From assembly GCA_022841905.1 (NCBI GenBank), contig JALHQO010000004.1, positions 1 to 64,000 on the forward strand: 64,000 nt of DNA, written 5' to 3'. Positions 5,980 through 62,750 of the stretch are shown here, in pieces. The notes under the pieces were generated by a model. That model was given only the letters and a program-made list of their open reading frames with translations. It had not been told where the DNA came from and did not search any database. Position 1 is the stretch's first letter, and each line of letters starts with the position of its first letter. A program made the translations under genes and the position numbers. Source of the stretch: Hyphomonadaceae bacterium. Its GTDB lineage: Bacteria; Pseudomonadota; Alphaproteobacteria; Caulobacterales; Aquidulcibacteraceae.

Positions 5980-5993
5980 TTGCGCTTGCGCAA
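5980..5993 (-). promoter_or_regulatory. FixK/FNR-type box upstream of USP
   Basis: Perfect palindrome TTGCGCTTGCGCAA, fitting TTG(A/C)-N6-(T/G)CAA. Its centre is 87 bases before the USP start at 5899; with class-II spacing transcription would start near 5945. Confidence 0.55.
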
Positions 5994-6183
5994 ATCGATC
6001 ATGAGAAGGCGCGATGACTGTGATCGGTTTTGGCAATAGTGAACAAGAGGGAGCGTGTGACGGATGGCGCTCGGACCGCTTCGTCATTGCCGGCGCCGAT
6101 CGTTGTGATTGACAAAGCTTGATCGAACGCCGCCCCGAACTGGGGCATCTGCCGCCGGCTTTGGCGGAGAGTGCGTCCTGCAA

Positions 6184-7164
6184 GTGCTTGAAAATCTCGG
6201 CGCGGCGGCGGGCGCCAATTTGCTCGCGCCCGCAGTGTTGTTCTTCGCTCTGGGCGCGATTGCCGGCTGGCTCAAGTCCGATCTCACCATCCCCGATCAG
6301 GTCGCCAAGAGCTTGGCGCTCTATCTCATGCTCTGCATCGGCTTTAAGGGCGGCGTCGAGGCGCGCGCCAGCGGGCTGACGCCGGACCTTCTATCCGCAG
6401 GCGCGCTTGGGCTCTGCTTGAGCTTCGCGGCCCCGTTCGCGGCTTACGCGGCGCTGCGCGCGTTCGGCGCGCTCGATCGGGTGACGGCGGCGGCGACCGC
6501 GGCGCACTATGGCAGCGTTTCGGTTGTCACCTTCGCCGCGGGCTCGGAATATTTGCGCGCGATCGGCGTTGAGTTCGGCGGTTACATGGCCGCGGTGCTC
6601 GCCTTGATGGAAACGCCGGCCATATTAGCGGCGCTGCTGATCGCCGGCTCGCGCGGCGGCGCCGCCGGCGCGCGCATCAAGCCGACATTATGGCGTGAGG
6701 TGTTCTTGAATGGCGCCGCCGTCGTCCTCGTCGGCAGCTTCATCATTGGCGCGATCACCAATGAGCCGGGCAGGGAGCGGCTTGACCTGTTCGTCGGAGC
6801 CTTGTTTCAGGGCGCACTGTGTCTCTTTCTGCTCGACATGGGATTGGTGGCCTCGCGCCGGCTCGCCGCGGCGCCCAAGCTCAACTGGGGCCTGATCGGG
6901 TTTGCACTTGTCTGGCCGCTCCTCAGCGCCGCGGCCGCGCTCGCCGCCAGCATGGCGCTTAACTTATCGCTCGGTGATGCAAGTCTGATGGCGGTGCTGG
7001 CGGCGTCTGCGTCCTATATCGCAGCGCCTGCCGCCATGCGCATTGCACTGCCCAACGCGGACGCGGGCGTATACTTATCGCTGTCTCTGGGCGTGACGTT
7101 CCCCTTCAATCTGCTCGTCGGCATTCCGCTCTATCACGCAATTGCACGTCTCATGTACGGGTGA
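6184..7164 (+). CDS. sbtA: SbtA-family sodium-dependent bicarbonate transporter
   Basis: About 326 residues, very hydrophobic, with roughly ten membrane segments in two inverted halves, the SbtA (DUF897) fold. Recognisable parts are the N-terminal NLLAPAVLFFALGAIAGWLKSD-like helix, LMLCIGFKGGVE, and AATAAHYGSVSVVTF, the region that lines the bicarbonate/Na+ site. SbtA imports HCO3- in cyanobacteria; in heterotrophs it may feed carboxylases. A GTG at 6184 is taken as start because family members begin close to this point; the frame stays open up to a TTG at 6109, and GGAGAG at 6166 could instead serve a CTG at 6178. The next gene, six bases downstream, encodes its PII-like partner. Confidence 0.85.
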   Translation: MLENLGAAAGANLLAPAVLFFALGAIAGWLKSDLTIPDQVAKSLALYLMLCIGFKGGVEARASGLTPDLLSAGALGLCLSFAAPFAAYAALRAFGALDRVTAAATAAHYGSVSVVTFAAGSEYLRAIGVEFGGYMAAVLALMETPAILAALLIAGSRGGAAGARIKPTLWREVFLNGAAVVLVGSFIIGAITNEPGRERLDLFVGALFQGALCLFLLDMGLVASRRLAAAPKLNWGLIGFALVWPLLSAAAALAASMALNLSLGDASLMAVLAASASYIAAPAAMRIALPNADAGVYLSLSLGVTFPFNLLVGIPLYHAIARLMYG

Positions 7165-7170
7165 AGTCAA

Positions 7171-7476
7171 ATGGACCTTGTGACGCGTACCAAACTTGAG
7201 ATCTTCGTCGAAGCGCACGCCGTCAACGATCTGGAGCGGATGCTGACGCGCGTGGGCTTTAAGGGCTGCAGTGTGTTTGAAGGCGTGGAAGGCGCAGGCA
7301 GCCATGGGGCATGGCGTCAGACCGGTGTGGACGAGGCCGGAATGCGCTTGATCATCACCATTGGTTCAGAAGCGTCCGCGCGGGCCGCGCTGACCTGGCT
7401 CGAAGACTATTTCAAATCCTATCCGGGCGTCGTGGCGGTGAGCGAAGTCAAGGTGCTCCGCGCCGAGCGCTTCTAG
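7171..7476 (+). CDS. SbtB-like PII-family regulator of SbtA
   Basis: 101 residues, the size of GlnB/PII-fold proteins. It shows the ferredoxin-like pattern beta (TKLEIFVEA) - helix (NDLERMLTRVGF) - beta (GCSVFEGVEGAG), a flexible loop rich in Gly/His/Trp (40-52) where PII proteins have the T-loop, then RLIITIGSEASARAAL and a last strand VVAVSEVKVL. SbtB in cyanobacteria binds adenine nucleotides, including cAMP, and plugs SbtA. Being directly downstream of sbtA makes this assignment strong. It lacks a C-terminal CGPEGC redox tail found in some SbtB proteins. Confidence 0.8.
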   Translation: MDLVTRTKLEIFVEAHAVNDLERMLTRVGFKGCSVFEGVEGAGSHGAWRQTGVDEAGMRLIITIGSEASARAALTWLEDYFKSYPGVVAVSEVKVLRAERF

Positions 7477-7505
7477 CGCCTTGCGCATCGCGCCGACGTC
7501 GCGCC

Positions 7506-7661
7506 TCAAGCCTTCGTCCAAGCGAGGGCGCCAACCAACACAAGGGTCAAGCAAGCGACCAGATGAGCCGCCAACACAAGGGCGTAAGCGAGGTGCGTCT
7601 CGCTCATCACTGATGCAATCCAAGCCGTCGCTGCGGCGGCGCTGCGCTGCTTAAGAAGCAC
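7506..7661 (-). CDS. Possible small single-span membrane protein
   Basis: A 51-codon frame from a GTG (a shorter form starts at an ATG, residue 19) encodes one clear hydrophobic segment, HLAYALVLAAHLVACLTLVL, with a charged N-terminus. There is no good ribosome site. It may be real or chance; no family is recognised. Confidence 0.22.
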   Translation of the reverse strand: MLLKQRSAAAATAWIASVMSETHLAYALVLAAHLVACLTLVLVGALAWTKA

Positions 7662-11979: not shown

Positions 11980-11993
11980 TTGATGCGGATCAA
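11980..11993 (+). promoter_or_regulatory. FNR/FixK box upstream of P-type ATPase
   Basis: TTGATGCGGATCAA, an exact match to the FNR consensus TTGAT-N4-ATCAA. Centre 64 bases before the ATG at 12051; class-II spacing puts the transcript start near 12028. Confidence 0.75.
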
Positions 11994-12050: not shown

Positions 12051-14813
12051 ATGCAGAACAAAACGCAATTCCAAGCCGACAAGAACGCAACGGAGTTCCA
12101 CGCCCGCAGCGCGGCAGCGGCGCTCATGGCTATGGAGACGCGGCCCGAAGGTCTGACGCAGACCGAGGCCCTGCAGCGGCTCAAGCGCCATGGACCCAAC
12201 ACATTGCCGCGAGCGCAACAGCGCAGCCTTATCGTTCGCTTCCTCGCACATTTCCACAACGTGTTGATTTACGTGCTGCTGGGGGCGGCGGTCATCACCG
12301 CAACGCTCGGGCATTTCGTCGACACTGGCGTCATCCTCGCGGTTGTGATCGCCAATGCGATCATCGGTTTTATACAAGAGGGACGCGCAGAGCAGGCGAT
12401 GGAGTCCATCCGCCACATGCTTGCGCCCAAGTCTGCGGTTTTGCGCGATGGCGTACGTTGCAGTGTTGATAGCGCTGAAGTGACGCCAGGCGACATCGTG
12501 TTGCTGGAGGCCGGCGAAAAAGTCCCCGCCGATGTGCGTCTGCTTGAGGCGACTGGACTGCGGATCGAAGAGGCGATCCTCACCGGCGAATCCGTACCCG
12601 TGTCGAAGGCGGTCGCGCCGGTTGCGGCGGACGCGCCGCTTGGCGACCGCACCTCTATGGCGTTCAGCGGCACGCTCATCGTGGCGGGTCAGGGGCGCGG
12701 CGTTGTCGTCGCCACCGGATCGTCGACTGAAATCGGGCGCATCAGCGGCCTTTTGTCCAAAGTGGAAACGCTGACTACGCCGCTTGTCAGGCAGATGGAC
12801 GGCTTCGCGCGCTGGCTGACGGTCCTCATCCTGCTGATCGCGGGCGCGTTGCTGATCTACGGCTATTTCGTCGGTCACCTGCCGTTCTCAGAACTCTTCA
12901 TGACGGTGGTGGGGCTCTCGGTCGCCGCCATTCCCGAAGGGCTGCCGGCGGTGCTGACCATTACGTTGGCCGTCGGCGTGCAAGCCATGGCGCGGCGCAA
13001 CGCAATTGTGCGCCGTTTGCCGGCCATCGAAACGCTGGGCTCGGTGTCGGTCATCTGCAGCGACAAAACCGGCACGCTCACACGTAATGAAATGATGGCG
13101 GCGACGCTTGCGAGCGCGGAGGGGGCCTATGCCGTCGCCGGAGAGGGCTATGCGCCCGAGGGCGCCATTCGCTTCTCCGATGCGGAGGTCGATCCCAGCA
13201 AGCACACGCTGCTTATTGAGTTCGCCCGCGCGGCCGCCCTCTGCAACGACGCAGCGTTGCGACGTGACGCGGCCGGCTGGAAGGTCGAAGGCGACCCGAT
13301 GGAGGGGGCGCTGAAGGCGTTGGCCGCGAAGATCATGCACGCGGGTCCTGATCCCTTCAGTGACTGGCGCCGCGTCGATGTCATCCCCTTCGATGCGCGC
13401 CATCGCTACATGGCGGTGCTCACCCAAGATCAAGGCGGCGAGGCGGCGATACACGTGAAGGGCGCGCCCGAACGCGTGATTGAAATGTGCTCTGGCCAAC
13501 TCGCGGCCGATGGCGGTTCAGCGCCTGTCGACGAGCGTTATTGGCGCGCCCGAATCGAAGAGATCGCCGCCAGCGGTCAGCGCGTGCTGGCGCTTGCGCG
13601 CCGCCGCGTCGGGCAAGACCAACGCGCGCTGTGCGAAGCGGATCTCCAGGAAGGTCTGATGCTGATTGGCTTGGTGGGGCTGATTGACCCGCCGCGCCGC
13701 GAAGCCATTGACGCCGTCGCCGAATGCCGAAGCGCTGGCATCCGCGTCAAGATGATCACTGGCGACCACGCCGGCACGGCCGTTGCGATTGCCCGTCAAA
13801 TCGGTCTTCAACATCCCGATGGCGTGCTGACTGGCGCCGAGTTGGAAGCCATGAACGATGCGGAGCTGGCCGCCGCCGTCCTCGACACCGATGTGTTTGC
13901 AAGGACAAGCCCTGAACACAAGCTGCGGCTTGTGACCGCGCTGCAAGCGCATGGCATGACCGTGGCGATGACCGGCGACGGCGTGAATGACGCGCCGGCG
14001 CTGAAGCGGGCGGACGCTGGCATCGCCATGGGCCAGAAAGGCAGCGAGGCGGCCAAGGAGGCCTCGGAGCTGGTGCTCGCCGACGACAATTTCGCCTCGA
14101 TCGCCGCCGCCGTCCGCGAGGGCCGCACCGTCTATGACAACATCAAGAAGGTGATCAGCTGGACCCTGCCCACCAATGCGGGCGAAGCGATGACGATCAT
14201 TGTCGCCCTGTCTCTCGGCATGGCGCTGCCGATTACGGCGGTGCAGATTCTCTGGATCAATCTGATTACAGGGATCACGCTGGGCCTTGCGCTCGCCTTC
14301 GAACCCACCGAAGCGAACACCATGTTGCGTCCGCCGCGCGCGCGCAGCGAACCGCTGCTCAACACCGAACTCGTCTGGCACATCGTGCTGGTCTCGGTCC
14401 TGTTCCTCGCGGCGGTGTTCGGCATGTACGCCTACGCAATCGACAAAGGGTACCCCGCCGAACTGGCGCGAACGATCGCGCTCAACACGCTGGTTGTCCT
14501 CGAAATCTTCCACCTCTTTTTTATCCGGAACATTTACGGGACGTCGCTCACGTGGCGCGCCGCGCAGGGGACCCCGGTTGTGTGGGGCTGCGTCATCGCA
14601 ATTACGCTCGCACAGTTCGCCGTCACCTACGCGCCGCCGCTGCAGAACGTGTTTGGCACGCGCGCCGTGCCCCTGCTCGACGGCCTTATCATTGTCGCGG
14701 TTGGAGCGGTGTTCTTCGCGGTCATCGAAGCGGAAAAGCAGACGCGCCTTGCTGTGCGCGCGTCCAGCATTCGACAAGCGGCCTCTTCGTCCCGTCGATT
14801 TGGCCGGCCTTGA
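12051..14813 (+). CDS. P-type cation-transporting ATPase, type II (Ca2+/cation)
   Basis: 920 residues with the full type II P-ATPase plan: cation ATPase N-terminal region (~15-85, GLTQTEALQRLKRHGPNTLP), actuator motif TGES (178), membrane motif AAIPEGLPAVL (~300) in helix M4, phosphorylation motif DKTGTLT at Asp338, KGAPE in the nucleotide domain, hinge GDGVND at 642, and a six-helix C-terminal region (~700-905). The PEGLP motif fits Ca2+/Mn2+ or other cation pumps of the PacL/PMR1 type; mycobacterial CtpF is a hypoxia-induced relative. Substrate cannot be fixed from sequence alone. A perfect FNR box precedes it; it is monocistronic. Confidence 0.93.
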   Translation: MQNKTQFQADKNATEFHARSAAAALMAMETRPEGLTQTEALQRLKRHGPNTLPRAQQRSLIVRFLAHFHNVLIYVLLGAAVITATLGHFVDTGVILAVVIANAIIGFIQEGRAEQAMESIRHMLAPKSAVLRDGVRCSVDSAEVTPGDIVLLEAGEKVPADVRLLEATGLRIEEAILTGESVPVSKAVAPVAADAPLGDRTSMAFSGTLIVAGQGRGVVVATGSSTEIGRISGLLSKVETLTTPLVRQMDGFARWLTVLILLIAGALLIYGYFVGHLPFSELFMTVVGLSVAAIPEGLPAVLTITLAVGVQAMARRNAIVRRLPAIETLGSVSVICSDKTGTLTRNEMMAATLASAEGAYAVAGEGYAPEGAIRFSDAEVDPSKHTLLIEFARAAALCNDAALRRDAAGWKVEGDPMEGALKALAAKIMHAGPDPFSDWRRVDVIPFDARHRYMAVLTQDQGGEAAIHVKGAPERVIEMCSGQLAADGGSAPVDERYWRARIEEIAASGQRVLALARRRVGQDQRALCEADLQEGLMLIGLVGLIDPPRREAIDAVAECRSAGIRVKMITGDHAGTAVAIARQIGLQHPDGVLTGAELEAMNDAELAAAVLDTDVFARTSPEHKLRLVTALQAHGMTVAMTGDGVNDAPALKRADAGIAMGQKGSEAAKEASELVLADDNFASIAAAVREGRTVYDNIKKVISWTLPTNAGEAMTIIVALSLGMALPITAVQILWINLITGITLGLALAFEPTEANTMLRPPRARSEPLLNTELVWHIVLVSVLFLAAVFGMYAYAIDKGYPAELARTIALNTLVVLEIFHLFFIRNIYGTSLTWRAAQGTPVVWGCVIAITLAQFAVTYAPPLQNVFGTRAVPLLDGLIIVAVGAVFFAVIEAEKQTRLAVRASSIRQAASSSRRFGRP

Positions 14814-14928: not shown

Positions 14929-17595
14929 TCACGATCCGCCCCCGTGTGCGCCGCCGCCGGGCCGGAATTCCGTACGCACTGCCCCCGCGCCCGGCGTCAA
15001 ACTCGCGCCCATGGCGCGCGCCATCATGAGCATGTTCTCGTTGTCATTGAGCACGTCGCCCCAGACGCTGACGGCGCCGCGGTGCTCAGCATAGTGGAGA
15101 AGGGCTAAGAGTAATTCTCGGCCAATGCCGCGGCCCTGCATGTCGGAGCGTACAATGAGGCCGTATTCCGCCGCCGAGAATTCTGGATCGAATATGAGGC
15201 GCGCGACGCCGGCAATGGCGCCATCTTCCTCGCACGCGACGAACGCCATCTCGCGATCATAATCGATTTGTGTCAGGCGCTGAGCTTGCCCAGGCGCGAT
15301 TCTGCGGACCGCGCCGTGAAACCGCAGCCGCAAATCTTCGGGCCGGGTGCGTGCGACCATCCCGGCGAGCGCTCCGGCGTCGCTTGGCCGGATCGCGCGC
15401 AAAATGAGCTTTTCGCCGTCAGGCAGGGCGACATCGCGGGCAAGCTCAGCCGGATAGGGCCGTATCGCCAGGCGCTTCTCAGCATCGGCGGGGGCAGGCC
15501 GCACCAGGATGCGCGCGTCGAGCGCGATGACGCCGTCCGCATCGGCGAGCAGCGGATTGATGTCGAGTTCGGCGATCTCTGCAAAATCAATGGCCAGATC
15601 GGACACCGAGACAAGAGCGGCTGCGACCGCGGCGAGGTCCGCTGGCCGGCGATCGCGAAAGCCGGCCAGCAGCTTGGCGACGCTGGTCTGTGCGATCAAC
15701 GCCTGCGCCAGCGTCGCATTGAGCGGCGGCAAGCCGACGACGCGGTCGGCGATGACCTCTGTCGCCACGCCGCCATGACCGAAAAGGATGGTGGGACCGA
15801 AGGTTTGGTCTTCGCTCAGTCCAAGTATGAGTTCTTGTGCGTGCGGACGCCGGATCATCTGCTGCAGGGTGAAACCGGTCAGTCGGGCCTCGGGCGCGGC
15901 GGCTGCGACGGTCTCCAACATCCGCGCAGCGGCGGATTTCACCGCGTCTGTGTTAGCGAGCGCGAGCGCGACGCCGCCGACATCGGTCTTATGGCTGATA
16001 TCGGGCGAGAGGATTTTCAGCGCAAACGGACCTTGGCGCCGGCTGGCGGCTTCCGCGGCGTCGTCGGGGGTGTGAACGATTTCGGTTTCCACCACGGGGA
16101 CGCCGTAAAGCGCGAGCACGCGTTTGGCTTCCGGCTCGCTCAACATGGAGCGCCCCTCGCCGATGACCTGCGCGATGATGGCGCGCGCCTCCTGGCGCGC
16201 GGCGGGCGAACGTTCCGGGGACGCCGGCGGCGTCTCAAGTAAAGCGGCCTGGTTGCGATCGTACTCGACCAGATTGACGAAGGCGTTGACCGCTTCTTCA
16301 GGCGTCTCAAAACTGGGCACGCCCGCATCGGCAAAGCGCTTGCGGGGTTCGGCGGCCGTCGCTTCGCCCATCCAGCAGGCGAGCATCGGCACTTTAGGAT
16401 GACGCGCCTTCGCCGTCAGCACCGCCTCGGCCGCTTCGAGATTGTCGGCCACGCCGGTGGGACAATTGATCACCAGAATGGCGTCCTGTTCGCTGTGGCG
16501 CACAAGTGCGGCAAGGGCGGCTTCGTATCGATCGCTGTGAGCGTCGCCTAGAATGTCGACCGGATTGGCGCGCGACCAGGCGGTGGGCAGGACCACGTCG
16601 AGCGCCGCACGCGCAGCGTCGCTGAGCGGCAGCGGTGGAACGCCGCGTGCTTCAAGCGCGTCGGCCGCCATCACGCCCAGCCCCCCGCCATTGGTGATGA
16701 TGGAAAGTCTGTCTCCGTGTGGGCGCACGCCGCTCGCGACGGTCTCGGCGGCGTCGAAGAGTTCGCGCAGCGACTTGACGCGCAGCATGCCGGCGCGCCG
16801 GAAGGCCGCGTCATAGACAATGTCGGCGCCCGCCAGCGCGCCGGTGTGCGAAGCCGCCGCGCGCGCCCCCGCTTCGCCGCGTCCTGCCTTGACGACGAGC
16901 ACTGGTTTTGCGCGCGCCGCGATGCGCGCCGCCGACATGAATTTGCGCGCCTGGGTGACGTTCTCGACATAGAGGAGAATAGCTTTCGTGGCGCTATCGA
17001 GCGCGAGATAATCGAGCAGGTCGCCGAAATCGACATCACTCATGTCGCCCAACGACACGATATGCGAAAAGCCGATCCCGCGTCCGTTGGCCCAGTCGAT
17101 GATCGAGGTTGCGATCGCGCCCGACTGTGTGAGAAATGCAAGTTCGCCCTTGAGCGGCGCCAAATGAGAGAAGCTGGCGTTGACGCCAGCGATCGGCGAA
17201 AGAAATCCAAGGCAATTGGGGCCGACAATGCGCATGAGGCGCGGCCGCGCCGCCGAAAACATCGCCGCGCGCTGGCCTTGGTCAAACCCGGCGCTGATGA
17301 TGACGACAGCGCGGCAGCCCCGCTGGCCTAAGTCCTCGACGAGTTGCGGCGCAGCGTGAGCCGGCGTTGCAATGACCGCAAGCTCCGGCGCGTGAGGAAG
17401 AGCGGCGACATTTGGGTAGGCTCTGACGCCTTGGATCTCGGTTTCACGCGGGTTGATCATCATAACAGGCCCCGCGAAGCCGCCGCTCATCAGATTGCGG
17501 GCAATGACGGCCCCAACCGAACCTGGCTTGTTGCTGGCGCCGAGAAGTGCGATCGCCTTGGGCGCAAACAGTGCGTCGAGATTGCGCGTTGTCAT
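14929..17595 (-). CDS. ADP-forming acyl-CoA synthetase fused to GNAT acetyltransferase
   Basis: 888 residues in three parts: CoA-binding and succinyl-CoA-ligase-like domains (~5-460) with the active-site His250 in SHTGALAG; an ATP-grasp domain (~480-700; PFALKILSPDISHKTDVGGV); and a C-terminal GNAT domain (~725-880; RSDMQGRGIGREL is the acetyl-CoA-binding motif). This is the layout of Pat-type protein lysine acetyltransferases and of bifunctional acetyl-CoA synthetase (ADP-forming)/GNAT proteins. Because His250 is present the ligase half may be active, unlike Salmonella Pat where it is degenerate. Divergent from a USP, and each has its own FixK-type box. A role in acetate/ATP economy or in controlling other enzymes by acetylation is inferred. 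Confidence 0.9.
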   Translation of the reverse strand: MTTRNLDALFAPKAIALLGASNKPGSVGAVIARNLMSGGFAGPVMMINPRETEIQGVRAYPNVAALPHAPELAVIATPAHAAPQLVEDLGQRGCRAVVIISAGFDQGQRAAMFSAARPRLMRIVGPNCLGFLSPIAGVNASFSHLAPLKGELAFLTQSGAIATSIIDWANGRGIGFSHIVSLGDMSDVDFGDLLDYLALDSATKAILLYVENVTQARKFMSAARIAARAKPVLVVKAGRGEAGARAAASHTGALAGADIVYDAAFRRAGMLRVKSLRELFDAAETVASGVRPHGDRLSIITNGGGLGVMAADALEARGVPPLPLSDAARAALDVVLPTAWSRANPVDILGDAHSDRYEAALAALVRHSEQDAILVINCPTGVADNLEAAEAVLTAKARHPKVPMLACWMGEATAAEPRKRFADAGVPSFETPEEAVNAFVNLVEYDRNQAALLETPPASPERSPAARQEARAIIAQVIGEGRSMLSEPEAKRVLALYGVPVVETEIVHTPDDAAEAASRRQGPFALKILSPDISHKTDVGGVALALANTDAVKSAAARMLETVAAAAPEARLTGFTLQQMIRRPHAQELILGLSEDQTFGPTILFGHGGVATEVIADRVVGLPPLNATLAQALIAQTSVAKLLAGFRDRRPADLAAVAAALVSVSDLAIDFAEIAELDINPLLADADGVIALDARILVRPAPADAEKRLAIRPYPAELARDVALPDGEKLILRAIRPSDAGALAGMVARTRPEDLRLRFHGAVRRIAPGQAQRLTQIDYDREMAFVACEEDGAIAGVARLIFDPEFSAAEYGLIVRSDMQGRGIGRELLLALLHYAEHRGAVSVWGDVLNDNENMLMMARAMGASLTPGAGAVRTEFRPGGGAHGGGS

Positions 17596-17648: not shown

Positions 17649-17662
17649 TTGAGCGCTCTCAA
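17649..17662 (-). promoter_or_regulatory. FixK/FNR-type box upstream of acyl-CoA synthetase/GNAT
   Basis: Palindrome TTGAGCGCTCTCAA. Centre 60 bases before the start at 17595. A CATATG at 17621-17626 sits where a -10 element is expected for class-II activation, giving a start near 17614. Confidence 0.6.
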
Positions 17663-17734: not shown

Positions 17735-17781
17735 AAAACATATCGCGCGCGTGGCTGCCAAAAACAAACATGGAGGCAGCC

Positions 17782-53158: not shown

Positions 53159-54660
53159 ATGGAAATGCTCATCCGCTGCGCGCGCGCCGGCTGCGGCTTC
53201 TGACCCAGGATGAGGCGATCGTGCTGATGCGCACCGACGCCCATGTGTGCAAATCAGAGGGACTTGGCCCGCGCGCGCGCGTGTTGGTGCGGGCCGGCGC
53301 GCGCGAGGTGATCGCCACGCTCTATCAAATCGAAAACGCATGGCTGCTTGCCGGCGAGGTCGGGCTCTCAGAAGCCGCGTGGCGGCGACTTGGTCTAAAC
53401 GCCGGCGATGTTGTCGAGGTCCAGAACGCGCCGACAGTGGAATCATTGGCCGACGTGCGCCGGCGAATTTATGGCGGCCGCTTAGATGCACGCGCCTTCG
53501 GCGCGATCATCACAGACATCGTCGCCGGCCGTTACGCAGACATCCACCTCGCCACCTTCGTTGCGGCCTGCTCAGCCTCTCCCCTCGATCTGGAGGAAAT
53601 CACGCATCTGACCGGGACGATGGCCGACGCAGGGGATCGGCTCTCCTGGGACACGCCCGTGGTGAGCGACAAGCACTGCGTTGGCGGATTGCCGGGAAAT
53701 CGCACAACGCCAATCGTTGTCGCGATCGCAGCCAGTTGTGGGCTCATCATGCCCAAGACATCCTCGCGCGCTATCACCTCGCCATCGGGCACGGCGGATG
53801 CGATGGAGACACTTGCGCCTATCGATCTTGATGTCACGGCCATGCGGCGCGTTGTAGAAGCGGAGGGCGCCTGCATTGCTTGGGGAGGCGCAATGAGGCT
53901 GTCGCCCGCAGATGATGTCTTGATCCGCGTCGAGCGTGCGCTTGAGATCGATACTGAAGGCCAACTCATCGCCTCGGTCTTGTCAAAGAAGATCGCCGCC
54001 GGCGCCACTCATGTCGTTCTCGATCTCCCCGTTGGTCCCACGGCGAAGGTCCGGACCGATCTCGCGGCGGATAAACTCACCGCGCATATCTCTGCTGTGG
54101 CCGCATCGTTCGGCTTGAAGACCCGCGTATTGAGAACCGATGGCGCGCAGCCGGTCGGACGCGGCATTGGTCCCGCGTTGGAAGCGCGCGACGTTCTGGC
54201 CGTGCTGCAGGGCGAGCCACAGGCGCCGCAAGAGTTGCGCGCCCGCGCCTTGGCGATCGCCGCGGCCGTGCTCGAAATGGCAGCCGCCGCACCCGAGGGG
54301 CGTGGGGCGGCTCTAGCGGAGGAGACGCTCGCGAGCGGCCGCGCTTGGGTCAAGTTCCAGCGCATCTGCGCTGCGCAAGGGGGCATGCGCGAGCCGCCGG
54401 TGGCGCCGTTGACGCGGCCGCTCGCGGCGGCTCATTCGGGCATCCTCACCCACATCAACAACCGCAAGCTTTCGCGCCTCGCCAAACTTGCCGGCGCGCC
54501 GGACGACAAGGCGGCGGGCGTCGAGCTCCTGGCGCGGCTTGGGGATTACGTGACAGCTGGGGCGCCGGTCGTGATCGTGCACGCCGAGACGCCAGGCGAA
54601 CTGGATTATGCATTAGCGTTCGCCGCCGCGAATATGGACATGTTTGAGATAGAAGTTTGA
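53155..54660 (+). CDS. AMP phosphorylase / thymidine phosphorylase-like protein
   Basis: 501 residues: an N-terminal ~90-residue barrel domain, typical of the archaeal-type AMP phosphorylase rather than short DeoA, then the helical and alpha/beta domains with SDKHCVGGLPGNRTTPIVVA (phosphate site), PKTSSRAITSPSGTADAME and KLTAHISAVA. AMP phosphorylases split AMP (or CMP/UMP) with phosphate to ribose-1,5-bisphosphate and base. ATGA overlap with the nuclease gene. With the PRPP synthetase-like gene next door it suggests nucleotide salvage under stress. Confidence 0.88.
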   Translation: MNGNAHPLRARRLRLLTQDEAIVLMRTDAHVCKSEGLGPRARVLVRAGAREVIATLYQIENAWLLAGEVGLSEAAWRRLGLNAGDVVEVQNAPTVESLADVRRRIYGGRLDARAFGAIITDIVAGRYADIHLATFVAACSASPLDLEEITHLTGTMADAGDRLSWDTPVVSDKHCVGGLPGNRTTPIVVAIAASCGLIMPKTSSRAITSPSGTADAMETLAPIDLDVTAMRRVVEAEGACIAWGGAMRLSPADDVLIRVERALEIDTEGQLIASVLSKKIAAGATHVVLDLPVGPTAKVRTDLAADKLTAHISAVAASFGLKTRVLRTDGAQPVGRGIGPALEARDVLAVLQGEPQAPQELRARALAIAAAVLEMAAAAPEGRGAALAEETLASGRAWVKFQRICAAQGGMREPPVAPLTRPLAAAHSGILTHINNRKLSRLAKLAGAPDDKAAGVELLARLGDYVTAGAPVVIVHAETPGELDYALAFAAANMDMFEIEV

Positions 54661-54665
54661 GCGCC

Positions 54666-55538
54666 ATGCGTGTCATCCTGCCAATGCCGGACAACGAGAC
54701 GATGGCTCGCGCGCTTGCGCGGCGTCTTGATGCGGAACTGGGCGTCCTCGACTGGCGGCGGTTTCCGGACCAAGAAGCTTACGTTCGCATTGCAAGCGAC
54801 GTGCGCGACAAGCATGTCCATATCGTCTGCACGCTGGCAAACCCTGATGCGAAAATCTTGACGCTCATCTTTGCGGCCGCTGCGGCGCGCGAATGTGGGG
54901 CGCAGAGCGTTCATCTGGTTGCGCCCTACCTTGCTTATATGCGCCAGGATAGGCGTTTTGAGCCCGGTGAAGCGGTTTCGGCGACACACTTTGCCCGCCT
55001 GTTATCGCAACACTTCGATAGTCTGATTACGGTCGATCCCCATCTTCATCGCATTGGCGATTTAAAAGACGTATTCTCCATCCCGACACGCGTTGGCGCG
55101 GCTGCGCCATTGCTTGGCGACTGGATTGGGCGGAACGTGGACGCACCCTTGATTATCGGGCCAGACCAGGAAAGCGAACAATGGGCAGCCGAGGTCGCGC
55201 GCCGCGCGGGTGCGCCGCATGTGGTCGCGAGCAAACACCGGACCGGCGATGAACACGTGCGCGTGGAAATGCCGGACCTGGCGACGTGGAGCAGCCGGCG
55301 CCCGGTTCTCGTCGATGATATAATCTCTTCTGGGCGGACTATGATTGAAGCATCACATCTTCTGGCCGCGCGGGCGATGGCGCGGCCTTATTGCTTGGCG
55401 ATCCATGCCGTCTTCGCCGCAGGCGCCTTTGACACTCTCGCTCGGCTGACTGAACGCGTGGTGACCACCGATACGATCGCTCATGCCTCCAACGCCATCT
55501 CTGTTTCGGACACGCTGGCGAGATTGATTGAAGCCTAG
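54666..55538 (+). CDS. PRPP synthetase-like phosphoribosyl-pyrophosphate kinase
   Basis: 290 residues, slightly short. Motifs: LVAPYLAYMRQDRRFEPGEA (ATP loop), ITVDPHLHRIGDL (metal), the flexible-loop region SKHRTGDEHVRVE, and the PRPP loop VLVDDIISSGRTM (~215-227). Makes PRPP from ribose-5-phosphate and ATP; in this operon it might instead act near ribose-1,5-bisphosphate (inference). ATG 54666 starts five bases after the preceding stop. It is probably a paralogue of the housekeeping Prs encoded elsewhere. Confidence 0.87.
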   Translation: MRVILPMPDNETMARALARRLDAELGVLDWRRFPDQEAYVRIASDVRDKHVHIVCTLANPDAKILTLIFAAAAARECGAQSVHLVAPYLAYMRQDRRFEPGEAVSATHFARLLSQHFDSLITVDPHLHRIGDLKDVFSIPTRVGAAAPLLGDWIGRNVDAPLIIGPDQESEQWAAEVARRAGAPHVVASKHRTGDEHVRVEMPDLATWSSRRPVLVDDIISSGRTMIEASHLLAARAMARPYCLAIHAVFAAGAFDTLARLTERVVTTDTIAHASNAISVSDTLARLIEA

Positions 55539-56147: not shown

Positions 56148-56517
56148 TGTGAAAAACCTCGGTTGGGCCCTGGCGCGCCGGTATGGGCTGGCGCCTTCGT
56201 CCTTCACATGGCGCTTAAGGCCAGTGCTGCCGACGAGGCCCGCGCCGACACGCATCGCGCCTGGTTGCGCGGGATCAATTGGTTGGCGCCAGGGCCCGCT
56301 AGGGTGGATGGGTGCCGCAAGCAGCGCCGGCATCGGCGCCTTGACGCAAAGGTGGTCCGCCGCCCCCCGCCGGACTGACTGAACGCCAAGGCGCCGATCG
56401 GTTGACAAAGAGACTTTGTATGGACGCGCCCGCGCCGGTCCAGCCCCCGCCACTGCAACGGTATTGCTGCCGACGCTTGCACGTGCGCCCGTCTTTCAAA
56501 TCCTATGCGCAGCCGTC
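56148..56517. other. Intergenic region upstream of USP
   Basis: 370 bases with no gene. A FixK-type sequence TTGCGCGGGATCAA at 56264-56277 is 247 bases from the USP start, and a TTGACA hexamer at 56402 could be a sigma70 -35. Neither is assigned with confidence. Confidence 0.4.
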
Positions 56518-57351
56518 ATGGCTCTGAAAAAAATTCTCATTCCGGTGATCACGCTGGAAGACGATCGCCCCGCGCTCAGCGCCGGCGCTGAACTGGCCCA
56601 GTACTTTGGCGCCCGCGCGACGGCGCTGATTGTGTCAATTGGGCAAGGCTCAGAGTTCGCACCCACCGAAAGCCCGCTGTCGGACGTGCTTTTGGACCTG
56701 GTCAAGGGCGCCCAGTCCGCCGCGGCGCTGGAGCGCGCCAAGATCATGGCTTGGTTGGAGCGATCGTCGCAGGCCTTTGAAGTGCGCGACGTAACCGCCG
56801 AAGCCGCTTTGGGGCGTGACGAAATCGTCGCTCACGCCAGCGTCGCCGACCTGATCGTTTCGGCGCGTGGACGACACCACGAGGCGCGGCGCGCGCTCCT
56901 AGAGGAGGTGTTGTTCAAATCGGGACGGCCGCTGCTGTTGGCGTCGTCATCGCCGCACCGCACGCAAAAATGCGAGCGCATACTGATTGCCTGGAACGCC
57001 AAGGCGCAGGCGGTGCGGGCGGTCACAGCCGCCTTGCCATTGCTGGCGGCCGCCAAGGCGGTGCGGATCGTGACGGTTGACGCGCCGCCCAGCGCGGCAG
57101 CGCACGGCCAAGCGCCCGGGCGCGAACTGGCCGCCTACCTTGCATGTCACGACATAGAGGCCGAGGTCAGCAATCTGGACGGGCTTGGTCGCGAGCCTGC
57201 ACGCGCAATCGCCGACGCAGCACTCGATTTCGACGCCGATCTCATCGTGATGGGGTTTTATGGACATTCGCGTGCGCGCGAGTTCGTGCTTGGCGGGGTG
57301 ACACGCGATCTGCTCGCGACATCCAAACTGGCGCTTTTACTCGCCCACTAG
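56518..57351 (+). CDS. Universal stress protein, tandem Usp domains
   Basis: 277 residues, starting MALKKILIPVITLEDD; the C-terminal domain has GFYGHSRAREFVLGGVTRDL as nucleotide motif. Like the other USPs here, its N-terminal half lacks the motif. ATG 56518 lacks a clear ribosome site. The gene is convergent with the DUF445 gene (five bases between stops). Sixth tandem-domain USP in the window. Confidence 0.88.
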   Translation: MALKKILIPVITLEDDRPALSAGAELAQYFGARATALIVSIGQGSEFAPTESPLSDVLLDLVKGAQSAAALERAKIMAWLERSSQAFEVRDVTAEAALGRDEIVAHASVADLIVSARGRHHEARRALLEEVLFKSGRPLLLASSSPHRTQKCERILIAWNAKAQAVRAVTAALPLLAAAKAVRIVTVDAPPSAAAHGQAPGRELAAYLACHDIEAEVSNLDGLGREPARAIADAALDFDADLIVMGFYGHSRAREFVLGGVTRDLLATSKLALLLAH

Positions 57352-57356
57352 AGCCG

Positions 57357-58628
57357 TCACGTCAGCCACTGCGTCAGTTGATGGATGCTCACGCCGATCA
57401 ACCCGCCAATGACCGTCCCGTTGATCCTTATATATTGAAGATCGGGGCCGACGCTCTGTTCGAGCTTCTCCACCACCGTCCGTGTATCCCAGCTGCGAAT
57501 TGTTTCGGAGATGAGAGCGCCGACATCGCGGCCATGACGGCCGGAGATTTCGGTGAGCAGGGCCCGCAAGCGACGGTTCAGTGTTTCTAGCACCACGGCG
57601 TCGTCCAGCAAGGCAGCCCCAAAGCGTTCAATACCTTCGGCGAGAGCTAGGCGCGCCGAAGATTGCGGCGTTTCCGCACCCGAACGAAGCGCTGCCTTTA
57701 GCGCCCGCCAGACATCCGCGAAATATGTGGCGACCGCCGGGTGGGCGAGAATGTCGCCAACCACTTGCTCGATCTGCAAGCGCAACTCTGGCGAGGTCTG
57801 CAGATCGTCGGAGAACTTCTGCAGCAATTGGGTGATACGCGTGCGGGCCGGATGGGCGGGCTCGGCCGCAATTTGGCGCAGCGTGTCTTCGATCGCCGAG
57901 ATCAAGGCGTCGGAAGCGCGTGCGTCGAGCGAAATCAACCGCCATACCCATGACGTGCGCGCCCGCACCTGCGCGCGGATAGCCGCTTCGTGCTCCTCCA
58001 AAGCGCGCCATCCTTCCGATAACGCCGCGTCAAGCACGCCTTGGTGGCGGCCGTGCTCGGTGAGCAATTGAAGGCCGCGGCCGACTGCGGCGGATAATCG
58101 CTCGTCCTTGCTGAAATCGCCGATTTGGCGGCGCATGAAGTCGCTCACGACCTCATCGTCGAGCAGGTCGGAAATCGCCGGCAGCGCGTCCATCACGCCA
58201 TCGGCGACGCGGCGCGCGGTGGCGGGATCGGCCAATTGCCGACCCAGAGAGGTGGCGAGGTCTTGGTTGCGCAAGCGTGCGCTGATCACTTCGGGGGCAA
58301 GGAAGTTGACGGCGACAAACTCGCCCAAGGTGTGGGCGATGCGCTCTTTGCTGCGTGGGATAACCGCTGTGTGGGGGATAGGCAGCCCCAGGGGGTGGCG
58401 AAAAATTGCGGTTACCGCAAACCAGTCAGCTAGACCCCCGACAAGGGCGGCTTCCGCGAAGGCGCGCGCATAACCCCAGCCCGCGCCTTGGTCGTGTTGC
58501 GAAAGGGCCAGGAGGTAGAGCAGCCCCATCAGAACCAACAGGCCAGCCGCTACCAGACGCATCGTCGGCAAAGACAACGCCTTGTCCTCGGCGGCGGCGT
58601 GAGCGCCCTGGTCAGTGTGGTCGGTCAT
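57357..58628 (-). CDS. DUF445 membrane-associated protein
   Basis: 423 residues. Two membrane segments (~22-45 and near 55-75, YARAFAEAALVGGLADWFAV), a DUF445 core with FRHPLGLPIPHTAVIPRSKERI and long helices (~100-390), and a C-terminal hydrophobic segment (INGTVIGGLIGVSIHQL). Related to E. coli YjiN. ATG 58628 follows a -10-like GATAAA and a FixK-type box at -41, so it may be leaderless; a longer frame from 58676 runs into the box. Function unknown. Confidence 0.87.
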   Translation of the reverse strand: MTDHTDQGAHAAAEDKALSLPTMRLVAAGLLVLMGLLYLLALSQHDQGAGWGYARAFAEAALVGGLADWFAVTAIFRHPLGLPIPHTAVIPRSKERIAHTLGEFVAVNFLAPEVISARLRNQDLATSLGRQLADPATARRVADGVMDALPAISDLLDDEVVSDFMRRQIGDFSKDERLSAAVGRGLQLLTEHGRHQGVLDAALSEGWRALEEHEAAIRAQVRARTSWVWRLISLDARASDALISAIEDTLRQIAAEPAHPARTRITQLLQKFSDDLQTSPELRLQIEQVVGDILAHPAVATYFADVWRALKAALRSGAETPQSSARLALAEGIERFGAALLDDAVVLETLNRRLRALLTEISGRHGRDVGALISETIRSWDTRTVVEKLEQSVGPDLQYIRINGTVIGGLIGVSIHQLTQWLT

Positions 58629-58662: not shown

Positions 58663-58676
58663 TTGATCGAAGGCAA
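58663..58676. promoter_or_regulatory. FixK/FNR-type box between DUF445 and DUF5132-like genes
   Basis: TTGATCGAAGGCAA fits TTG(A/C)-N6-(T/G)CAA. Centre 41.5 bases upstream of the leftward DUF445 ATG, with GATAAA (58632-58637) as -10; it could also serve the rightward gene at 58735. Confidence 0.6.
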
Positions 58677-58734: not shown

Positions 58735-59013
58735 ATGGGGTTTGGCGCCAGACTGCTCGCAACAGCGTTGCTCTTGGGCTGTGGGGCATTAGCGGTCGCC
58801 ACAATCGTGGCCGCGCCCCGTATCCTGCGGACGACGCGCCCTTTCATTCGCGAGGGCCTCCGTCGCGGATTTGGGCTCTACGAGCAAGCGCGCGCCGCAG
58901 CGGCGGAATTTGCCGACGATGTGGAGGACCTTGTCGCTGAAGCGCGCGCCGACCAAGCGAGCAACTCGCCCGGCGCCGCTGACCCAGTCGCGACCGATCT
59001 CAAGAAAGCTTGA
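58735..59013 (+). CDS. Small DUF5132-like membrane protein
   Basis: 92 residues: one membrane segment (LLATALLLGCGALAVATIVAA, ~7-27) followed by a helical, acidic part (PFIREGLRRGFGLYEQARAA, AEFADDVEDLVAEARADQ). The pattern R-x-x-x-R-G-x-x-L-Y-E with DVEDLVAEARAE fits DUF5132-type proteins, often near heavy-metal ATPases. GGAG seven bases before ATG 58735. Its end overlaps the convergent ATPase gene by 14 bases. Confidence 0.7.
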   Translation: MGFGARLLATALLLGCGALAVATIVAAPRILRTTRPFIREGLRRGFGLYEQARAAAAEFADDVEDLVAEARADQASNSPGAADPVATDLKKA

Positions 59014-61924
59014 TCCCGCTGCGTGGTCGAAGCAGGCGCGTGGCCAGCGGCGCGAGCGAAAGGCCGACGATCATCGCCGCTTCAAGCGGCTTGGGCGGCG
59101 TAATACGCAGGATGCGCCGCAGGGGGGCGAAGGCAAAGGGCGCCGCCAGCAGAATATAGGATGCTGCCACACCCAACTCGATCGGGCGATCGAACAGGTC
59201 GCTGGGGGGGCGGCCTGGCCGTAGACGCAGCGCATGTGCGAGCTGATGACTTGCAAGCGAAAGGAAAGTGGCGCCTCGCGTCCGTGGACCGGACCCATGC
59301 CGCGCTGTGCCAAGAACATGCGTGATCACGGCCGGCGCCGCGATGCGCAGTGCATCCGCTGCGATGGCGCCGATCTCGCGTTTACCGAAGGGGTCCTCGC
59401 TCACGTTGCGCGGCGGCCGCTTAAGGATGTCGGCCGCCGGCCGCGCCATCGCCAAGCCCAGTGCTGGAAAAACATCCGTCATGAGATTCAGCCAAAAAAG
59501 CTGCGCTGGCGTTTCCAACGCGTCGGGGCCATGCAGACCCTCGGCCAAGAGCAGGGCGACTTCGCTCGCATTGGTGGCCAGCAGAAAGCGCACGGCGCGC
59601 CGGAGATTCTCGTCGGCGGCCCGGCCCCGCGCCAGAGCGGTGGTTAGACTCGCTAGGTCGTCATCGGCAATGACGATGTCGGCGACATCGCGTGCGACGT
59701 CGGCGCCGGACTTGCCCATGGCGATGCCGATGTCAGCGGACCGCAATGCCGGCCCGTCATTTACGCCATCGCCGGTCATCGCGACGATGCGCCCGTCGGA
59801 TTGAAGCGCGCGTATGATGGCGAGCTTGTCGGCGGGACTGACCCGCGCGAACACCTCTGTCGACCGCGCCGCATGCCTGAGCGCTTCCGGGGCCATGCCG
59901 CGCAGGGCGCTGGCGTCGATGACGTCTATCTCACCGTCATTGGAAAAACCAAGATCCTCGGCGAGTTTGCGCGCGGTCCCGGCTTGATCTCCCGTCAAGA
60001 TGAGTGTGCGCAGCCCGGCTCGTTGCAGGGTTTGGATGGTCTTTGCCGCGCCCGGCCGCAGCGGGTCGTGTAGTCCGACGAGCCCGAGCCATTCCAGGTT
60101 TCGTGGCTCGCCGTCGTCGAGTGTATGGTTTAATCCGCGCGCTACGCCCAACACGCGCAAACCCTCGCGCGCCAGCGTTTCGTTTTGCGCAAGGATTTCG
60201 GCGCGCGTAGTCTCGTCCAGCGGCCGCAGTCTTGAGCCGGCCCGAACGGATACGCACAAGCTTAGCACCTGATGCGGCGCGCCTTTGACGGCCAGCAGTG
60301 TCGTGTCGCCCGTCGCGTGTTCGGTGGCCATGTAAAGGCGCGTCTCAGACCGCTGCAGAACGCCGCGGCGCGGATGGGCGGTGCGCAACGTCTCGACGTC
60401 CAACCCGGCCGCGGCGGCAAGATGCAACAGTGCAAGCTCGGTGCCTGAACCAGCTGACGGCCCTTCCGCGCCTGAAAGCGCGGCGTCGTTGCAGAGCGCG
60501 GCGATCTTGGCCAGCAAACGGAAGCTGGGCGCAGCGCGTCCAGTCTCCTGAATGTCTCGGCGCTTGAGGAGTGTTTGCACGACGGCTGCGTGCATGCGGT
60601 TTTGCGTCAGCGTCCCTGTCTTATCGAGACAAATCACGTCCACGTTTGCGGCCGTCTCCAGCACATTCACGTTGCGCACGTAGGCGCCTTCGCGCGACAT
60701 CGCGCGCGCCGCCATCGCCTTGGTGGAAGCCGCCAGCGCCGGCAAACCTTCCGGAATGGCCGAAACCGCGAGCGCTACCGCACTCTTGGCCACGGCCGAC
60801 CATGGTGCGCCGCGCAGCAAGATCATCGCGGCCAGAAGACCCGATGCACCCAAACACGCGATCGTCAACCGAACACCAAGCTCGTCGAGCGTACGTTCCA
60901 TTGGCGGCTTAGGCGCCTGGGCATGTTCCAACATGTGGCGCACGCGGCCAATTTCCGTCGCGGCGCCGGTCGCCGTCACGACTGCGACGCCTGCGCCATT
61001 GGTCACGACGCCACCGCGATGGACCATGGTGCGACGCGCTGCGAGAGCGGCGTTAGGCGCCACGAGTGTCTCCGCGGATTTCTCAGCCGGAAAACTCTCT
61101 CCCGTCAGGGAAGACTCGTCGATCATCAGCGCTTCCGCGCTGATCAGGCGGCCATCTGCGGGGACGGCGGCGCCCGGTTTCAGCACGATGCAGTCGCCTG
61201 GAGCGATGCGCGAACTTGGCACAACAGCCGCAACGCCATCGCGCAATACCACCGCGTCAGGGTCGGTCTGCCGCGCTAATCTACGAATGAGATTGGCTGT
61301 CCAGCTTTCGGTCGACGCGCCGATGCTGGCATTGAGTGCGATCACGCCCAGCGTCAGCGCCGCGTCGATCACGCCGCCGGTCGCCAAGGATAGAATTGCC
61401 GAGCCCCCAAGCAACGCCACTGGCACTGACTTGAATTGATCAGCAAGCACAGCCATCGCCGCTGGCGGCTGTGGTTCGGCGAGGCGGTTCTCGCCGATGC
61501 GATAGAGGCGCTCCCTGGCTTCGCTGTCCGTTATGCCGATGCTGTGGCTTGCGAACGCGCCGAGGACCATGGCGCTGGACATGGCGTGCCAGGGCTTATC
61601 CGCAGAGTCCTTTGTCGCCCCCGGCGCGGGCGCTGAGAGACCGCCTCGCCAAATCTCACGGGTGATCCGAGCAAGCGCTTCCGCGGAGAGGCCCGCATCG
61701 TGTTCAATGAGGAGCGCGCCAGACCAAGGGCTCTCGCGCACATCCCGCACGCCCTCCCGCGCTGCAATGCGCCGAGAGAGGGCGCCCAGCAGATCCGGGC
61801 GACCACGCAGGGGATCAAGCCGCAGGCGGGTGCGCCCCTGCATGGCATGGTGCACACGTACGAACGGTTCGAGCCGGTGGTCGAACCTCACGTCATCCTT
61901 TTGAAACGCAGCGCGCCGCGCCAT
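59000..61924 (-). CDS. P-type cation ATPase with N-terminal HMA_2-like domain
   Basis: 974 residues. An N-terminal ~90-residue ferredoxin-like region (VHHAMQGRTRLRLDPLRGR) lacks the CxxC metal pair, as in HMA_2/CtpI-type pumps. Then come TGES (ESSLTGESFPAEKS), M4 AIPEGLPALAAST, DKTGTLT (Asp434), GDGVND (718) and about six C-terminal helices. The PEGLP in M4 with a non-metal N-domain makes soft-metal transport unlikely. Resembles the long type II-like pumps of proteobacteria and mycobacteria, substrate unknown. It follows two small helical-protein genes, with three bases between. Confidence 0.9.
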   Translation of the reverse strand: MARRAAFQKDDVRFDHRLEPFVRVHHAMQGRTRLRLDPLRGRPDLLGALSRRIAAREGVRDVRESPWSGALLIEHDAGLSAEALARITREIWRGGLSAPAPGATKDSADKPWHAMSSAMVLGAFASHSIGITDSEARERLYRIGENRLAEPQPPAAMAVLADQFKSVPVALLGGSAILSLATGGVIDAALTLGVIALNASIGASTESWTANLIRRLARQTDPDAVVLRDGVAAVVPSSRIAPGDCIVLKPGAAVPADGRLISAEALMIDESSLTGESFPAEKSAETLVAPNAALAARRTMVHRGGVVTNGAGVAVVTATGAATEIGRVRHMLEHAQAPKPPMERTLDELGVRLTIACLGASGLLAAMILLRGAPWSAVAKSAVALAVSAIPEGLPALAASTKAMAARAMSREGAYVRNVNVLETAANVDVICLDKTGTLTQNRMHAAVVQTLLKRRDIQETGRAAPSFRLLAKIAALCNDAALSGAEGPSAGSGTELALLHLAAAAGLDVETLRTAHPRRGVLQRSETRLYMATEHATGDTTLLAVKGAPHQVLSLCVSVRAGSRLRPLDETTRAEILAQNETLAREGLRVLGVARGLNHTLDDGEPRNLEWLGLVGLHDPLRPGAAKTIQTLQRAGLRTLILTGDQAGTARKLAEDLGFSNDGEIDVIDASALRGMAPEALRHAARSTEVFARVSPADKLAIIRALQSDGRIVAMTGDGVNDGPALRSADIGIAMGKSGADVARDVADIVIADDDLASLTTALARGRAADENLRRAVRFLLATNASEVALLLAEGLHGPDALETPAQLFWLNLMTDVFPALGLAMARPAADILKRPPRNVSEDPFGKREIGAIAADALRIAAPAVITHVLGTARHGSGPRTRGATFLSLASHQLAHALRLRPGRPPSDLFDRPIELGVAASYILLAAPFAFAPLRRILRITPPKPLEAAMIVGLSLAPLATRLLRPRSGIKLS

Positions 61925-61927
61925 CGA

Positions 61928-62362
61928 TCAGGCCGGCGCCTTCGCCGGCTCAATCACGCTCACTGCCGTTTCGTGTCGCAGCTTTTCAGCCGCGGCGTGG
62001 GCCTTCTTTGCCCCGGCGAGGAGTGCTTCGGCAGATCCTTCCGCCCCCTTGGAGGCGGTTTCGGCAAGAAACACGACGGCATGTTTCATCGCCACCTGGG
62101 CCTCTTGGCCAAATTCTTTCAGCTTTTCCTGCATGGCGGAAGTCTGTGTTGGAAGATCAGCGCGGATCGCCTGCGCCATCAGTCCGGCGTGCACCTTGAA
62201 CGCCTCAAGTTGTTCAGCCGCTTCGTCGATCTGCTTTTTGGCCTCGCCGCCTAATTGCGTGGCCCCGCTGTCCAGGCTTCGCTTGGCCTTGCCAAGGCGG
62301 TCTTCGAGACCCAGCAGTGTGGCCTTCAGGCCTTCACAGAAATCAAGCACAGCTTGGCTCAT
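61928..62362 (-). CDS. Helical (phasin-like/coiled-coil) partner protein
   Basis: 144 residues, almost all amphipathic helix (LGLEDRLGKAKRSLDSGAT, IDEAAEQLEAFKVHAGLMA, LKEFGQEAQVAMKHAVVFLA), Ala/Lys-rich C-terminus. Looks like a phasin or an apolipophorin-like amphipathic protein but no family is certain. GGAG six bases before ATG 62362 rules out a longer form. Located between an 88-residue gene and the P-type ATPase gene on one transcript. Confidence 0.65.
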   Translation of the reverse strand: MSQAVLDFCEGLKATLLGLEDRLGKAKRSLDSGATQLGGEAKKQIDEAAEQLEAFKVHAGLMAQAIRADLPTQTSAMQEKLKEFGQEAQVAMKHAVVFLAETASKGAEGSAEALLAGAKKAHAAAEKLRHETAVSVIEPAKAPA

Positions 62363-62421
62363 TGCACACTCCAATTTTTCCGCGGCACGCTCACGCGGCG
62401 GGCTGTTGGAAGGTCTGAAAC

Positions 62422-62688
62422 TCAAGCCTCGTCAGTCGGCTCACTCTCGGCGTCGCGCGCCAGCACCTCGGCTATTGCGCGTGCTGTGGCGCTGAGTTCC
62501 AGCTGCTCGCGCGCGACCGCGTCGCCGTCGCCGCGCACCCAGATTGCCGCATCGCTCAGGTCCGCAAAGGATGGCTTCTTGGACAGAATTTTGACCGCCA
62601 GGCTGTCGTCAATGGCGCCAAGCACATGGCGAATGTCATCGCGCGTCGCTGTGCGAATGTCGGTTGCGGTCTGGTTCTGCGTGGCCAT
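62422..62688 (-). CDS. Conserved hypothetical protein, first gene of ATPase operon
   Basis: 88 residues, MATQNQTATDIRTATRDDIRHVLG... Predicted helical with the segment ILSKKPSFADLSDAAIWVRGD and LELSATARAIAEVLARDAES. AGGAGA precedes the ATG. I recall similar small proteins beside P-type ATPases or USPs in other proteobacteria, but without a known role. The FixK-type box at 62737-62750 is centred 55 bases upstream, leaving a 14-base leader. Confidence 0.7.
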   Translation of the reverse strand: MATQNQTATDIRTATRDDIRHVLGAIDDSLAVKILSKKPSFADLSDAAIWVRGDGDAVAREQLELSATARAIAEVLARDAESEPTDEA

Positions 62689-62736
62689 GAACGGTTCTCC
62701 TATTCCGCCAATCTAGACCCCCACCATCTCGGGGAC

Positions 62737-62750
62737 TTGACCCAGCGCAA
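62737..62750. promoter_or_regulatory. FixK/FNR-type box between ATPase operon and PEP synthase
   Basis: TTGACCCAGCGCAA fits TTG(A/C)-N6-(T/G)CAA. Spacing is suitable for both divergent genes: starts near 62702 (left) and 62785 (right). Confidence 0.55.

Follow-up and report, generated by a model that had tools for sequence, protein, structure and literature searches.

Which regulator reads the numerous FixK/FNR-type boxes scattered along the beginning of a Hyphomonadaceae contig, and what do the genes behind them accomplish? The stretch in question, positions 1–64,000 of contig JALHQO010000004.1 (C4; 294,935 bases), is referred to here as the window; it has a G+C content of 63% and belongs to a genome of 3.56 Mb in 27 contigs. 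Boxes were sought as a loose pattern, TTG(A/C)-N6-(T/G)CAA, as a strict form, TTGA-N6-TCAA, and as an exact symmetric box, TTGAT-N4-ATCAA. An earlier note on this DNA had proposed a FixK/FNR-type regulon. That proposal, which can be narrowed to FixK, is supported by the enrichment of the boxes, their conservation in congeners, a class II -10-like element and the presence of genes resembling fixL, fixJ and fixK next to fixN, fixO and fixP. The window very probably represents the greater part of a low-oxygen island of some 90 kb controlled by FixK through class II activation and devoted to survival.

The loose pattern is found 23 times in the window, as opposed to a mean of 5.34 and a maximum of 12 in 100 dinucleotide shuffles, which were used to set the chance level. 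Fewer than two chance matches in 64 kb had been anticipated in the earlier note: this figure is too low, as the shuffles yield about five, and the excess is still real. No excess is seen in ten 20-kb control stretches on other contigs of this genome (200 kb in total), which have 12 loose matches compared to 14.8 in shuffles. The strict form occurs nine times in the window and once in this 200-kb control. A motif-free screen of four-base inverted repeats, covering 3,328 combinations of arm and spacer, placed TTGA-N6-TCAA first in fold excess within the 15 best listed; by P value it ranked third, behind two G+C-rich repeats.

The placement of the boxes is equally distinctive. Nineteen of the 23 are intergenic, though only 20% of the window is left unassigned to genes by the gene calls made in this analysis; matches to the same arms separated by spacers of 4, 5, 7 or 8 are intergenic in 5 of 27 cases. 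Fifteen box centres lie no more than 150 bp upstream of a gene start, and 13 of these fall at 39–88 bp (Table 1). The at least 12 pairings of box and gene start listed previously are all present, at 5980, 11980, 17649, 17723, 21755, 40991, 42244, 43721, 44016, 49141, 58663 and 62737. Pfam likewise confirms the six universal stress proteins (USPs) and identifies three P-type ATPases among the proposed targets. Five boxes had been described as exactly symmetric, which is true of 11980 only: those at 27057, 29758 and 43721 deviate from TTGAT-N4-ATCAA by one mismatch and that at 44016 by two.

Table 1. Genes and FixK/FNR-type boxes of the window. Distances are in bp upstream of the start of the gene named and, unless marked otherwise, are taken from the box centre; 'kept' gives the congener loci that retain the box. 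NMP, nucleoside monophosphate; PRPP, phosphoribosyl pyrophosphate; PEP, phosphoenolpyruvate; HTH, helix-turn-helix.
Feature	Position	Strand	Remarks
USP1	5060..5899	-	PF00582
P-type cation ATPase 1	12051..14813	+	PF00122, PF00689
Acetate-CoA ligase (ADP-forming type) fused to GNAT acetyltransferase domain	14929..17595	-	PF13607, PF13549, PF00583; TIGR02717 below cut-off
USP2	17782..18600	+	PF00582
USP3, USP4, USP5, consecutive	19133..21704	-	PF00582
hemN-type gene (oxygen-independent coproporphyrinogen oxidase), two frames	42359..43688	-	TIGR00538
HlyD / FtsX-MacB / ABC ATPase exporter operon	44806..49108	-	
P-type ATPase 2, beta-CASP RNase-like protein, NMP/nucleoside phosphorylase, PRPP synthase	49290..55538	+	
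USP6	56416..57351	+	PF00582
DUF445 protein	57357..58628	-	PF04286
P-type ATPase 3 with orf165 and orf88 upstream	59000..62688	-	
PEP synthase	62805..64000, on to contig position 65195	+	PEP-utilizer domains in continuation
FixK/FNR-type box	5980..5993	-	87, USP1 (ATG 5899); kept in 2/2 loci with USP1
Exact TTGAT-N4-ATCAA box	11980..11993	+	64, P-type ATPase gene 12051
Symmetric box	17649..17662	-	60, acetate-CoA ligase/GNAT gene
Box	17723..17736	+	52, USP2 (ATG 17782); kept in 2/2
Box	21755..21768	-	57, USP5-USP4-USP3 run
Symmetric box	38465..38478	+	25, called start of DnaJ-like gene (start uncertain)
Box	40186..40199	+	54, orf 40247; kept in 0/1
Symmetric box	40991..41004	+	70, small HTH gene 41068; kept in 1/3
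Box	42244..42257	-	79, DUF2189 gene; symmetric form kept in 2/2
Symmetric box	43721..43734	-	39, hemN (ATG 43688)
Symmetric box	44016..44029	+	76, orf 44099
Box between divergent operons	49141..49154		39 (box), ABC/FtsX/HlyD operon; on the other side 142 (box), P-type ATPase/RNase/phosphorylase/PRPP synthase operon
Box	56265..56278	+	144, USP6 (start uncertain); kept in 0/1
Box	58663..58676	-	41, DUF445 gene (ATG 58628); kept in 5/9
Box	62737..62750		between orf88/orf165/P-type ATPase run (-) and PEP synthase (+)

Conservation within the genus is concentrated at the promoters. A search of 30 genus members with 20 kb of window DNA gave matches in 24, counting the own genome; the ten longest-scoring blocks from congeners display 69–87% identity. 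Sixteen congener regions were taken because they match the window, and the 250 bp upstream of orthologs were scored. Orthologs of box-bearing genes have a box in 28 of 38 pairs, those of box-free genes in 5 of 65, with 0 or 1 per group for each of the spacing and reversed controls. The five positives among the box-free genes comprise RNase in genome G018, orf188 in G006 and orf165 in three genomes. ATPase 2 is missing from this location in G018, where the RNase gene comes immediately after the divergent promoter and has the box 39 bp upstream. The boxes at 21755, 38465, 43721 and 44016 had no ortholog scored; hemN gave no pair because its query was read in one frame from 43688, out of frame with the later part of the gene. 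PEP synthase was scored separately, outside these pair counts.

The box at 49141 was also followed individually. It is found upstream of the ABC gene in 8/8 congener loci; in the alignment both half-sites are kept in 5/5 congeners, in a more symmetric form, while the spacer and flanks vary. By comparison, the two inner genes of the exporter operon have a box in 0/8 loci each, and the aligned congeners do not retain the match inside coding sequence at 47709. The exact box at 11980 has a counterpart upstream of the ortholog in G022 and in a near-identical contig of G008 (G008:C2). The 62737 box has a G008 counterpart for both sides and a G022 counterpart for PEP synthase. The ligase/GNAT box is present in G022 and on Sinorhizobium meliloti pSymA, and none is seen in G006.

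A class II activator occupies a site centred at -41.5, which places the -10 element at offset 22 from the box. In a chosen set of 28 box-gene pairs, 20 of them on C4 and 8 elsewhere in the genome, offsets 21–24 after the box contain ten TA dinucleotides, against 1.7 expected; this range was chosen after viewing the table, the offset expected beforehand being 22. Only 39–41 bp separate the box centre from the ATG of the ABC, hemN and DUF445 genes, a distance that predicts nearly leaderless transcripts.

A suitable set of regulators is encoded on contig C12, where fixN-, fixO- and fixP-type genes adjoin FixL-, FixJ- and FixK-like genes, and a symmetric box (L104:6848) lies ahead of fixN (L104:5146–6810, minus strand). 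The FixK-like protein has Bradyrhizobium japonicum FixK2 as its best match in the PDB (4i2o, E 1.6e-53), and its best NCBIfam model is FixK (Caulobacter), at 240 bits, under the cut-off of 300, a hint that the organism is an alphaproteobacterium close to Caulobacterales. It carries an E-x-x-S-R recognition helix and is devoid of an N-terminal cysteine group; these two features together favour FixK over a true FNR with its iron-sulphur cluster. The PAS and kinase portions of the FixL-like protein match FixL structures in the PDB, its score with the FixL model being 579 bits, under the cut-off of 850, and FixJ exceeds its NCBIfam cut-off and has a PDB match as well. FixK is detected at E <1e-40 in 27 of the 30 genus members, own genome included.

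Taken together with the boxes, these genes suggest a pathway in which the departure of oxygen from the FixL haem would lead FixL to phosphorylate FixJ, and phosphorylated FixJ would raise the level of FixK. This CRP/FNR protein, lacking the iron-sulphur cysteines of FNR, would bind boxes of the TTGA-N6-TCAA type some 41 bp ahead of the transcription start and from there activate the genes in the class II manner. What results would be a programme for surviving the lack of oxygen, including USPs, cation pumps, an exporter and oxygen-independent haem synthesis, together with substrate-level ATP making by phosphoketolase, acetate kinase and ADP-forming acetate-CoA ligase. The target list fits survival without oxygen.

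Several observations weigh against FixK control of the island. Eight of the 23 boxes (5011, 7832, 14810, 15719, 24513, 27057, 29758 and 47709) have no nearby gene start, and those at 15719, 24513 and 47709 are inside coding sequence. Two boxes of this group were rejected as promoters: the one at 24513, in the 3' end of the response-regulator gene, and the one at 14810, between convergent genes. The ortholog pairs are not all independent, since a single box is counted for both the ABC gene and ATPase 2, and retention is uneven: the DUF445 box is kept in 5/9 loci, that of HTH83 in 1/3, and those of USP6, Sbt and orf123 in 0/1 each. The G006 ligase/GNAT gene (72% identity) lacks a box, and its 70-kb surroundings hold only two. 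G001 encodes a FixK that is 98% identical, yet just nine strict sites are present (its genome is 87% complete). The ligase/GNAT gene also failed as a class-wide footprint, with a box at 4 of 25 scored genes. The starting set consisted of the best 30 matches, out of 88 genomes with a match, plus two congener loci; of these 32, seven, the window's own among them, were dropped for a start motif mismatch or a start not found. Two of the 25 are from congeners and the others from the class. Finally, the loose pattern yields 321 matches in the whole genome versus 221 for the reversed control, and on its own it says little at this scale. Such figures, and the degeneracy of the pattern itself, could be taken to mean that the box excess is a compositional artefact devoid of regulatory meaning. 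This explanation is barely credible, as it is contradicted by the control stretches without excess, by the intergenic location of most boxes and by the conservation of boxes upstream of congener orthologs, with the half-sites at 49141 kept amid varying sequence and the match at 47709 lost.

A more serious contender is that the boxes are read mainly by another CRP/FNR member, in response to a signal other than FixLJ. The genome contains 21 HTH_Crp_2 matches, 17 of which are over the cut-off, so that another reader is possible, and excerpts of two studies describe FixK, FNR and DNR boxes as near-identical (PMC4999443, PMC2908626; all papers are cited here from partial texts). One of the 17, on contig C9, exceeds the cut-off of the FtrB model PRK09392, displays the helix residues ENLSR and has symmetric boxes beside its gene. 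The best solved relative of the FixK-like protein is FixK2, in a PDB comparison made for this protein alone of the 17; its gene adjoins the fix genes, and the known B. japonicum FixK regulon includes a USP and hemN (PMC2908626, in part). A leading role for the FtrB-type protein or another of the 17 is accordingly judged unlikely. Less probable still, and by a clear measure, is an island run chiefly by its own histidine kinase and LuxR-type response regulator (22864–24533) in a DosR-like fashion, with FixK acting at some genes only. The pair is located near the USPs, and the mycobacterial DosR regulon, which serves low-oxygen survival, has ten USPs among 48 genes (excerpts of PMC6127331). Pfam detects neither a GAF nor a PAS domain in the island kinase, however, and only the part after residue 85 is covered by PDB matches; the window contains no match to two DosR-like palindromes, GGGAC-N4-GTCCC and GGGACT-N3-AGTCCC. 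The targets had previously been likened to hypoxia regulons of the FixK or DosR kind: the FixK half of this comparison stands, and the DosR half is an analogy only. The DosR regulon is USP-rich and dedicated to low-oxygen survival; it also includes a cation ATPase, and its regulator belongs to a different family.

FixK control of the island finds a close precedent in the rhizobial FixLJ-FixK regulon, which features FixL, FixJ and FixK with fixN, fixO and fixP and the same box. The 600–649 kb stretch of S. meliloti pSymA, which we take to be FixK-dependent and which is unannotated in the sequence record, has the loose pattern 16 times (3.4 expected) and the strict form 12 times (0.3 expected). 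It carries homologs of the exporter operon and of the RNase, ligase/GNAT, USP and P-type ATPase genes of the window, and a box stands some 62 bp ahead of its ligase gene. The two regions are unlike in gene order and in the make-up of their operons, and matches to the phosphorylase and PRPP synthase were not found in this stretch at E up to 1e-8. Published material points in the same direction, as far as the excerpted texts go. USPs, hemN1, phosphoketolase and GNAT proteins appear in tables of differential protein or gene expression at low oxygen in Bradyrhizobium (PMC6515984). Predicted alphaproteobacterial FixK members include ABC transporter parts, an HlyD protein, phosphoketolase and CBS proteins, and a USP is part of the predicted FNR core (Dufour 2010, PMC2908626). 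A USP and a P-type ATPase beside a cbb3 oxidase have been linked to an oxygen regulon in Myxococcus (PMC11841059). The Burkholderia cenocepacia lxa locus, a 50-gene cluster with six USPs, is linked with persistence in limited oxygen and has an Anr/FixK-like regulator as a candidate (PMC6127331). Like the island, it is a single large USP-rich cluster; it belongs to Burkholderia, and the gene lists, as excerpted, overlap only partly. The box consensus is given as TTGANCNNGATCAANG, and Caulobacterales FixK targets, in the available portion of the study, are limited to redox processes, with 70 genes in 21 operons, four genomes having been studied (Tsoy 2016, PMC4999443). Many of the island targets, by contrast, are not respiratory. 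The kind of system is therefore already known; the novelty lies in this particular member, in how dense it is and in a gene content that is largely non-respiratory. No published description of this island was found, which is a weak statement.

The box island does not end with the window. It is about 90 kb long and runs to about contig position 92,000, the window holding most of it. Of the 28 genomic sites that fit TTGAY-N4-RTCAA, nine fall within the initial 92 kb of C4 (0.7 expected), and the interval from 100,000 to 124,000 of this contig has just one loose match. Beyond the window, C4:75791–80292 accommodates a seventh USP (C4:75791), a phosphoketolase and an acetate kinase, accompanied by the box C4:75733. 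Also beyond the window, genes for a cytochrome b561 and a DUF302 protein have one common box. Elsewhere, boxes are found near a ribonucleotide reductase gene and a radical-SAM gene (C9) and an OmpW gene (C7). The C9, C12, C23 and C7 stretches were picked for holding strict boxes, and the congener regions for matching the window; their box counts are for this reason not a fair sample. The picture that emerges is that of a dense FixK-type survival island, patchy among the species of one genus, for which conservation at the level of the promoters provides a clean target list.

One part of this list recurs in the class. The phosphorylase gene was followed through 29 loci from 57 matching genomes: RNase lies within its 1.5-kb flanks in 23 of the 29 and PRPP synthase in 21 (window genes 51755–55538). 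Strict boxes are near only few of these loci. The phosphorylase proved a weak class-wide footprint of the regulon, with 14 loose and 8 strict boxes in the 29 loci versus 8–10 in three loose-pattern controls. A contig search with P-type ATPase as query was too general, returning 80 loci, and led to no conclusion. In this genus, the RNase-phosphorylase-PRPP synthase set lies behind a putative low-oxygen box. We speculate that it might serve an emergency route from RNA to ATP, in which the beta-CASP RNase and the NMP phosphorylase would release ribose phosphates that phosphoketolase and acetate kinase convert into acetate and ATP. The route is a long shot, and so is the further suggestion that the ADP-forming acetate-CoA ligase helps and that PRPP synthase possibly runs backwards. 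If it existed, cells deprived of oxygen would burn their own RNA, with P-type ATPases and USPs steadying the membrane and the state of the cell.

Some further features accompany these genes. The hemN-type gene is split: the ATG at 43688 and the open reading frame 42359–43540 are out of frame, and congener DNA matches span both. This open reading frame scores 322 bits with TIGR00538, whose cut-off is 325. The split is due either to a genuine lesion or to an error in the assembly. The P-type ATPase 1 region (11962–14713) shows 95% identity to a 7-kb G008 contig, above the 69–87% of the ten best blocks, which reflects either recent transfer or a misplaced contig. The 5980 box also lies 122 bp upstream of an Sbt-family bicarbonate transporter gene (6109–7476), which is followed by a PII-like gene. 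The minus strand carries two terC RNA elements (Rfam RF03067): that at 10606–10660 is ahead of a Bax1-I gene and terC, and that at 8481–8532 is downstream of terC, with no clear gene seen behind it. Curli-type genes (543–2026, minus strand) encode two curlin-repeat proteins and a CsgH-like protein that scores just under the cut-off.

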